From assembly GCF_000721495.1 (NCBI RefSeq), contig NZ_JOHY01000028.1, positions 1 to 64,000 of the forward strand: a stretch of 64,000 nt of DNA, read 5' to 3'. Below, piece after piece: positions 56,121 through 57,788 of the stretch. Origin of the DNA: Streptomyces sp. NRRL F-5123 (GTDB taxonomy: Bacteria > Actinomycetota > Actinomycetes > Streptomycetales > Streptomycetaceae). Below the pieces are notes generated by a model. It was not told where the DNA came from and did no database searches. It saw only the letters and a program-made list of their open reading frames with translations. The translations under genes and the position numbers were made by a program. Each line of letters opens with the position of its first letter. The first letter of the stretch is position 1.

Positions 56121-57788
56121 TCAGCAGCGCGCGGAGGTCCCCGGGGTCGTGGTCACGCCCTTGGGCGCCGAGGTCGGTGGGCCGACCGGGACGCCGGGCG
56201 CGCTGTAGTCGGCGCCGAGCGTGAGCGTCATGTTGGCCTTCGGCGCCGCGTCCTTCGTCCCCTCGACGAGGGCCGAGGCCGGCAGACCCATCATCGCGGC
56301 GAGCGACCGCGCCTGGTCCGCCTGGTTGGGGGCGTACTGCAGCGTCGTCCTCGCCGCCTTGGAGTGCGCGTCACCGCCGTTGGTGGAGCGGTCCACGCCC
56401 TGGGTGGTCTGCAGCCAGGCCAGCACGTCCTGGGACGCGCCGAAGACGCCCGTGCCGTTGTAGATGATCACCCGGGTCTCGTGCGGCACCGCCTTCGGCC
56501 CCACCAGCTTCGGGTCCGGCGCCGCCGGCTTCGGCGCCGCCGTCAGCGAGACGTCGTTGGCCAGCAGCGCGTAGACCTGCGGTGCCCTGTCCGGGTCCGG
56601 CGTGCCGTTCACGACCGGCAGCGTGAGGAACGTGGTGTTCTTCGGGTCGATCGCGCCGAGCGCCGCGGCCACGTTGCTGAGCGTCTCCGGGGTGCCGATC
56701 GGGGTGTCCGCGGTGAGGGCGCCGGGCTTGCGGTTCGCGAGCGCGGTCAGCGTGCGCGGCACCGTGACCGTTCGGTCGACGCAGGTGTCGCCGGCGGCCA
56801 CACCCTTCACGCCCTTGGCCGCCGTGTAGTCGACCATCACGACGTGGTCGACCGCGAGCTTGGTGAGCTGCCGTACGGTCAGCAGCGCGCAGCCCGCGTC
56901 CCGCCCGCCGCCGAGGGCCGCCGAGAACGGCTGGCCCTTGGCGCCGCCGACCGTGCCCGTGCCGCCGGAGCCGGAGCAGTCCGGGATGTCCGTGCGCAGG
57001 GTGGACGGGATCGCCAGCGCCGTCGCGCTGCCGCGGTCCGCCGCGAGGTGCACGAGCACGGCGGAGTCCGCGGAGCCCGCCGCGGGGTGCGCGCTCAGCA
57101 GCAGGACGTTCATCGCACCGGTGTGCGTCGGGGCCTTGCTGCCGGCCGAGCCGACGTCGACGGTGTGCATGGCGCCGCCGCCCCCGCCGCCGAGCGTGGC
57201 GACGCCGACGATGCCGCCGACCAGCAGCACGGCGCCCGCCGCGGCCGCGCCCCACACCATGGGCCGGCCCTTGAGCGGCAGTCCGGCGGGCCTGCGCCGC
57301 TGCGCCTCCCGTGCCGCCCGCCTGCCGCCGGGTGCCGGTGCGGGTGTGGGCGCGGTCCGCTCCGGTGCGGGGGGCTGCGTGCCGGTGTCGTACGCGTCGG
57401 GGGCGTCCGGGGCGCCGGGGGCCTGGTAATCCCCGTACGCCGGTGGGGCGTCGGGGGTGTCGTAGCCGCTGTAGCCGTCGTACGCCGCGGGCCCGTCGGG
57501 TACCTCGTACGGGGTGTAGCCGGGCGGCTCGGGGGAACGGTAGGCGTCCTGCGCGGGGGGCTCGGCCATGCCGCCGTACCCCGCGGCCACCGGCTGCCCG
57601 CCGTAGCCGTAGCCGTAGCCGTCGTGGCCGCCGCCCCCGTAGGTGTCGCCGCCGGGCGCGAACCCCTGCTGCTCCGGCGGCTGGTACGGCTGCTGCGGTA
57701 CGTCGAGCCGTAGCTGGTACGTCCCCGTCTCCGGGTCCAGCACCCACTGGTCAGCCGGGTCGACGTACCCGGACTCCTCGGTGCTCAC
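56121..57788 (-). CDS. LCP-derived protein lacking catalytic motifs (pseudo-LCP) with LytR_C domain, copy 5
   Basis: 555 residues from the GTG at 57788. The tail (1-176) is Gly/Tyr/Pro-rich, starting MSTEESGYVDPADQWVLDPE, with one transmembrane helix (about 177-199). The LCP-like region is recognisable next to copy 4 but eroded: the GTDSR site reads LLLSAHP (228-235), SIPRD reads AIPST (259-263), and the segment with the FVRTRH motif is missing entirely. The LytR_C domain (about 425-530, TRVIIYNGTGVFGASQDV) is well kept and close to that of copy 4. The frame is open with normal codon bias, so it is expressed protein, not a decayed gene. It cannot be a normal ligase; a regulatory or scaffold role is inferred. 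Confidence 0.85.
   Translation of the reverse strand: MSTEESGYVDPADQWVLDPETGTYQLRLDVPQQPYQPPEQQGFAPGGDTYGGGGHDGYGYGYGGQPVAAGYGGMAEPPAQDAYRSPEPPGYTPYEVPDGPAAYDGYSGYDTPDAPPAYGDYQAPGAPDAPDAYDTGTQPPAPERTAPTPAPAPGGRRAAREAQRRRPAGLPLKGRPMVWGAAAAGAVLLVGGIVGVATLGGGGGGAMHTVDVGSAGSKAPTHTGAMNVLLLSAHPAAGSADSAVLVHLAADRGSATALAIPSTLRTDIPDCSGSGGTGTVGGAKGQPFSAALGGGRDAGCALLTVRQLTKLAVDHVVMVDYTAAKGVKGVAAGDTCVDRTVTVPRTLTALANRKPGALTADTPIGTPETLSNVAAALGAIDPKNTTFLTLPVVNGTPDPDRAPQVYALLANDVSLTAAPKPAAPDPKLVGPKAVPHETRVIIYNGTGVFGASQDVLAWLQTTQGVDRSTNGGDAHSKAARTTLQYAPNQADQARSLAAMMGLPASALVEGTKDAAPKANMTLTLGADYSAPGVPVGPPTSAPKGVTTTPGTSARC

Follow-up and report, generated by a model that had tools for sequence, protein, structure and literature searches.

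A conserved CglA-like protein without the LCP active site: a candidate pseudoenzyme in a Streptomyces wall glycopolymer ligase cluster

We analyzed a 64,000-nucleotide stretch of Streptomyces sp. NRRL F-5123 (contig NZ_JOHY01000028.1, positions 1 to 64,000; hereafter the window), which carries a cluster of genes for LCP proteins. LCP ligases attach wall teichoic acids, arabinogalactan, and capsules; we know of no established role for the LytR_C domain that some of them carry. The gene studied here, c5d, encodes an LCP core without the active site, followed by a LytR_C domain (Table 1). The cluster reads solo LCP, c5d, LCP-LytR_C, LCP-LytR_C, glycosyltransferase, LCP-LytR_C, solo LCP, an order that agrees with that of the S. 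venezuelae genes vnz_13685 to vnz_13715, which form its cglA cluster (PMC11481543). Copy 4 occupies the cglA position, and c5d is additional. In architecture and gene cluster, c5d resembles CglA (Vnz_13690), an LCP-LytR_C glycopolymer ligase of S. venezuelae, and it shares most of the N-terminal motif and the LytR_C domain with copy 4, the presumed CglA orthologue. Unlike CglA, it has lost the active-site residues, and its LCP domain is missing 60 residues. The S. venezuelae inventory, as given in the available text, comprises four LCP-LytR_C proteins, four LCP proteins, and one solo LytR_C protein and lists no c5d-like copy (PMC11481543).

Table 1. Features of c5d and its neighborhood in the window
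Feature	Position	Strand	Remarks
c5d, pseudo-LCP (LCP core without active site, plus LytR_C)	56121..57788	-	GTG start; 555 aa
N-terminal motif GYVDPADQWVLDPETGTYQLRL	57705..57770	-	residues 7-28; conserved, mostly common to copy 4 (cglA)
Predicted membrane helix	57192..57248	-	residues 181-199; hydropathy peak
SAHPA replacing GTDSR	57081..57095	-	residues 232-236 of c5d
D241, sole active-site position retained in c5d	57066..57068	-	23/23 rows
AIPST replacing SIPRD	57000..57014	-	residues 259-263 of c5d; essential Arg gone
LCP-fold remnant	56547..57167	-	residues ~208-414 of c5d
Deletion junction R339/T340 in c5d	56769..56774	-	60 copy 4 residues absent
LytR_C domain	56205..56477	-	residues 438-528 of c5d
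Copy 4, cglA-type LCP-LytR_C ligase, active-site motifs intact	54150..55877	-	synteny with PMC11481543 (available part)
Copy 6, solo LCP ligase without LytR_C	57843..59249	-	ends 54 bp upstream of c5d
Copy 6-c5d gap	57789..57842	-	43-57 bp across 13 loci of that order
Promoter-like element GGCGGCTACTGTAAGCGACTTGGCGGTTAC upstream of cglA	55900..55929	-	conserved; 6 loci aligned

The reading frame of c5d is open along its whole length and encodes a membrane protein. Its GC content by codon position (0.725/0.594/0.960) is of the coding type, and the ribosome-binding site and start context are conserved. The long N-terminal part opens with GYVDPADQWVLDPETGTYQLRL, a motif that is predicted to be cytoplasmic, judging from the single predicted helix. 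LytR_C (PF13399) was detected at 45.2 bits, above the Pfam cut-off. The preliminary description, drawn from the DNA letters, had held that the helix, the LytR_C domain, and the open frame were kept, and these data agree with it. The LCP profile (PF03816) gave a borderline match, scoring 22.7 bits in hmmscan against a cut-off of 24.6, with only profile positions 2-77 of 150 covered; a six-frame genome search at the same place returned 25.6 bits, just above the cut-off. Four cysteines of c5d are conserved in 23/23 alignment rows.

We then aligned the LCP region of c5d with copies 4, 6, 3, 2, and 1. This six-copy alignment bears out the earlier claim that three catalytic blocks are replaced or deleted: SAHPA and AIPST stand in for the first two, and the deleted block corresponds to the 60 copy 4 residues between CLAR and SLTDP, including FVRTRH and SDLDRIKLQQ. 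A protein search yielded 386 relatives of c5d, the best 120 of which were listed, and the motifs of the top 22 (P0001-P0022) were read. All three changes were present in 22/22 of them, indicating that the loss of the active site is not due to chance; four of the 22 are short proteins (346-381 aa).

The active site of Cps2A consists of D234, D246, R267, R362, D371, R374, and Q378 (PMC7831098). Under a motif-based mapping, c5d would retain one of these seven residues, D241, which we take as the equivalent of D246 (numbering via PMC7831098), one metal-binding aspartate. The arginine of SIPRD appears to correspond to R149 of Actinomyces oris LcpA, because the 21-residue R128-R149 spacing fits. Its replacement with alanine in LcpA abolished both glycosylation and pyrophosphatase activity, and R118 of TagT is analogous (PMC6381275). 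Of the catalytic arginines and Mg-binding aspartates that define an LCP glycopolymer transferase, c5d thus apparently keeps only the one aspartate. The residues for LCP chemistry are missing from its sequence, and the protein is presumably inactive biochemically.

Conservation, codon-level selection, and predicted structure had been named in the preliminary description as checks on its claims, and all three were carried out. We examined 35 genomes of the genus, the window's own (G000) included, by alignment search, cluster DNA, and motif reading. The c5d deletion type lies beside an intact cglA in 8/35 (G000, G006, G009, G012, G014, G020, G023, and G031), and a second, separately arisen deletion type does so in two more (G029 and G033). 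Three genomes have other degenerate forms beside cglA: in G003 and G011 the block is retained with altered residues, and in G017 it is partly missing. A milder form, the SIPP type, which retains GTDS and much of the arginine block, is the only cglA-like copy in five genomes (G002, G007, G019, G030, and G034). Degenerate copies therefore occur in 18/35 genomes, 13 of the 18 having them beside an active-site-intact cglA. Only intact cglA was seen in the other 17, among them G015, where a degenerate neighbor is possible because the genome reaches 71% completeness and the gene lies close to the end of a contig. In G001 and G013 a second cglA-like gene lies outside the cluster, and both copies are intact. 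Carriage on plasmids was considered and rejected, as the four plasmid records matched at below 60% identity each and over at most 34% of the query.

The SIPP-only loci are L005/L056 (G019), L039 (G002), L044 (G007), L101 (G034), and L102 (G030). The only CglA of these five genomes has lost the catalytic arginine, even though S. venezuelae needs CglA for normal sporulation (PMC11481543). The cglA of G017 (L063:3792-5621 and 5137-5583) has intact active-site motifs, with LytR_C in another frame near the contig end, reflecting either a frameshift or an assembly error.

AlphaFold2 predicted for c5d a confident, compact alpha-beta-alpha LCP core and a Cei-like LytR_C domain (pLDDT, the predicted local distance difference test score, 92.1). 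The deletion spans residues 162-221 of the copy 4 model and removes three strands (E163-165, E170-172, and E175-179) and two helices (H181-189 and H199-219) of the LCP domain. In solved LCP structures the long helix bears active-site residues and helps to line the lipid tunnel. Because the deletion takes out these elements, the long tunnel-lining helix among them, canonical lipid-tunnel binding by c5d is doubtful on the model, and with it the earlier suggestion that c5d binds lipid-linked polymer. No alternative complete active site, which would have contradicted the preliminary description, came to light. That c5d has retained enzymatic activity, through a rebuilt active site or by catalyzing another reaction, is in our judgment very improbable: the invariance of D241 and the SIPP-type relatives, alone in five genomes with GTDS and much of the arginine block, would fit such a view, but c5d itself keeps a single Cps2A residue and has lost the arginine-pair region together with the long helix.

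To judge constraint, we estimated omega, the ratio of nonsynonymous to synonymous rates, in two ways; as GC at third codon positions is near 0.96, the absolute values are rough. Pairwise Nei-Gojobori (NG86) estimates from five genomes were 0.161 for LytR_C of c5d versus 0.160 for that of copy 4, and, for the LCP part, 0.359 in c5d (remnant) versus 0.178 in copy 4 (whole domain). A maximum-likelihood codon model fitted to seven genomes gave 0.043 versus 0.061 for LytR_C, 0.081 versus 0.033 for the same LCP columns, and 0.084 versus 0.217 for the N-terminal 30 residues (c5d versus copy 4 throughout). Fixing omega at 1 worsened the fit of the LCP remnant by a 2ΔlnL of 213 and that of LytR_C by 238, with two degrees of freedom, as these fits also fixed kappa at 2. 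The iqtree codon fit of the copy 4 linker never left its starting point (omega 1, kappa 1) and was not used. c5d is under purifying selection, which acts on LytR_C about as in copy 4 and on the LCP remnant more weakly, yet clearly.

These values bear on the possibility that c5d is a decaying duplicate without function. The progressive loss of catalytic residues, a constraint on the LCP remnant that is 2-2.5 times weaker than in copy 4, and the 17/35 genomes in which no degenerate copy was seen are what decay would produce. Against it stand the poor fit of neutral evolution, the confident fold, and the finding of no internal stop in any of the 18 degenerate copies (that of G017 being cut by the contig end). 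A functionless duplicate is already largely refuted and receives hardly any weight from us, and the recent pseudogene that would have undone the preliminary description is rejected by the same stop counts and codon tests.

The origin of c5d was traced in trees from which the motif and deletion columns had been excluded, one of them having 59 rows. In that tree, proteins stood for G019 (P0049), G029 (P0032), G033 (P0039), and G034 (P0036), L001 stood for G023, and G030 and G031 were left off. For the 12 genomes that were placed or represented by proteins, the degenerate copies fall together in a single clade (support 100/100) separate from intact cglA, and in this clade the SIPP and deletion types are neighbors (100/98). 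Immediately outside it lie two metagenome proteins, P0077, which retains SIPRD, and P0052, which has SIPGD (98/88 and 88/99). Approximately unbiased (AU) tests, whose groups were chosen after the tree had been seen, rejected lineage-specific duplications with convergent decay, both for c5d with its own copy 4 (p = 4.9e-12) and for SIPG copies with theirs (p = 2.9e-58). One shared deletion for both deletion types was rejected less strongly (p = 0.008), and the deletion boundaries differ. The tree and the AU tests point to a single old duplication followed by stepwise loss, with at least two separate deletions and a partial one of the G017 type. c5d has the cluster, the N-terminal motif, and the tree position of the CglA lineage, which supports its origin by tandem duplication of cglA (copy 4). 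The two gene orders observed (copy 6-c5-copy 4 and copy 6-copy 4-c5) are not accounted for by this duplication history.

Nature provides a series that runs from intact CglA through loss of a single arginine to removal of the active-site block, LytR_C staying similarly constrained. Such a series sets the function of LytR_C apart from LCP catalysis and offers a genetic system in soil bacteria for studying it. It also carries a warning for annotation, as several public entries named "LCP family protein" (e.g. P0003, P0004, P0005, and P0009) are without catalytic residues. Adjoining a gene for a wall glycopolymer ligase, c5d is probably a helper or regulator of such enzymes and not itself an enzyme.

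With about even confidence, we regard c5d as a long-standing functional pseudoenzyme that arose from CglA by tandem duplication and works alongside LCP ligases as a partner with LytR_C but without catalytic activity. The CglA-type cytoplasmic tail and the membrane helix would put c5d at CglA's place, where its LytR_C domain may pair with the LytR_C domains of active ligases or, alternatively, serve the neighboring solo LCP, copy 6. c5d could thereby position or tune glycopolymer attachment, the compact LCP core acting as a spacer or docking surface. A partner role is suggested by the retention of the N-terminal motif, since CglA without its intracellular part did not complement in S. venezuelae; CglA without LytR_C likewise gave the null phenotype (PMC11481543). 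By analogy, it is also suggested by VirR, a LytR_C protein of Mycobacterium tuberculosis without an LCP domain, which contacts LCPs through LytR_C and has been proposed as their scaffold (PMC11832169). An adaptor for LCP ligases, which the preliminary description took to be undescribed, had therefore already been proposed with interaction data.

Several observations weigh against a partner of this kind. The absence of a degenerate copy from 17/35 genomes means that its function is dispensable, and five genomes have no intact CglA at all. With the gene order copy 6-c5-copy 4 in one set of genomes and copy 6-copy 4-c5 in the other, the partner is ambiguous. CglA without its LCP domain failed to complement, and a protein of the CglA kind whose LCP domain does not work thus does not replace CglA, with the reservation that the authors did not exclude an effect on protein stability (PMC11481543). 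The split-GFP signal of VirR, in the text available, appeared only with C-terminal or LytR_C parts and not with full-length LCPs (PMC11832169).

A built-in inhibitor, competing with CglA for partners, polar sites, or dimerization through the N-terminal motif and LytR_C and so lowering ligation, seems rather unlikely to us. The motif and domain are indeed common to c5d and copy 4, and an active-site-intact cglA is present in 13 of the 18 genomes with a degenerate copy (LytR_C being in another frame in G017), but in the five SIPP-type genomes there would be nothing to inhibit. The 35-genome alignment search found no second cglA-like gene above 100 bits in any of them, and the other LCP genes fetched in G002, G007, and G019 were 35-41% identical to copy 4 and had no N-terminal motif.

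We also assign a low probability to c5d being an envelope protein of the Cei/VirR kind, in which LytR_C alone acts on wall glycan or an envelope protein, without an LCP partner, and the LCP core is an eroding spacer. VirR (Rv0431) and Cei (Rv2700) are LytR_C-only proteins without an LCP domain, whereas c5d has a constrained LCP core (omega 0.08 to 0.36, depending on the method), the four cysteines and D241 in 23/23 rows, and a CglA-type tail.

Vnz_11555/PdtA (SCO2578) is an LCP-LytR_C protein that, from its residues, may have lost enzymatic activity; no block deletion like that of c5d is mentioned for it in the available text, and its S. coelicolor orthologue was termed a transferase (PMC11481543). 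Our literature search, in which subscription papers were thinly covered, turned up neither an LCP-fold pseudoenzyme family nor an inactive LCP with a deletion of the catalytic block. A non-catalytic LytR_C scaffold (VirR) and a suspected inactive LCP protein (Vnz_11555) were already known; a conserved LCP-fold pseudoenzyme lineage with a block deletion was not found.

The position of c5d invites a further, tentative reading. The eight c5d copies and the five SIPP copies begin 43-57 bp behind copy 6 (G023 measured on L001), the degenerate copies of G003, G011, G029, and G033 start 63-69 bp behind cglA, and intact cglA starts 96-243 bp after the preceding gene (15 distinct loci, the window measured from GTG 55877). 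c5d might be a dedicated subunit that supplies copy 6 with its missing LytR_C domain and a CglA-type docking tail, forming a split two-protein LCP/LytR_C ligase, with repeated removal of the redundant active site in parallel; we consider this possible but not probable. The pseudoenzyme family of this reading, so far seen in this genus only, is encoded about 50 bp behind copy 6.

A clean operon of copy 6 and c5d was toned down as a conclusion. In c5d and SIPP loci, a conserved GATGAACTAAGGTGAGC-like stretch of the copy 6-c5d gap (57789-57842) surrounds the stop codon of copy 6; it resembles a variant of the cglA promoter-like element and may be a promoter within the end of copy 6. c5d may accordingly have its own promoter, and co-transcription with copy 6 is only a possibility. 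A sigma-70 consensus scan for a c5d promoter found none. The cglA promoter-like element itself (55900-55929) is strongly conserved, being of the GCTACTGTAAGCGA type in six loci and of the TAGTGTGAGCGATC type in others. Conservation places the start of copy 4 at GTG 55877; the mechanical open reading frame (54150-55910) begins at TTG 55910.

Outside the window, the same genome has a very divergent LCP-like match (G000:C7:22708-23139, 32 bits) in a 733-aa open frame. Weak, partial LCP matches of this kind were also seen in G002, G003, G007, G011, G017, and G019, that of G007 with LytR_C just downstream. Finally, copy 3 (52011-53963) reads WLRTRD instead of WLRTRH in the aligned loci of the c5d deletion type (the window, L001, L043, L046, L051, L057, and L109); the other copy 3 rows have WLRTRH, and WLRTRD may merely mark the clade.
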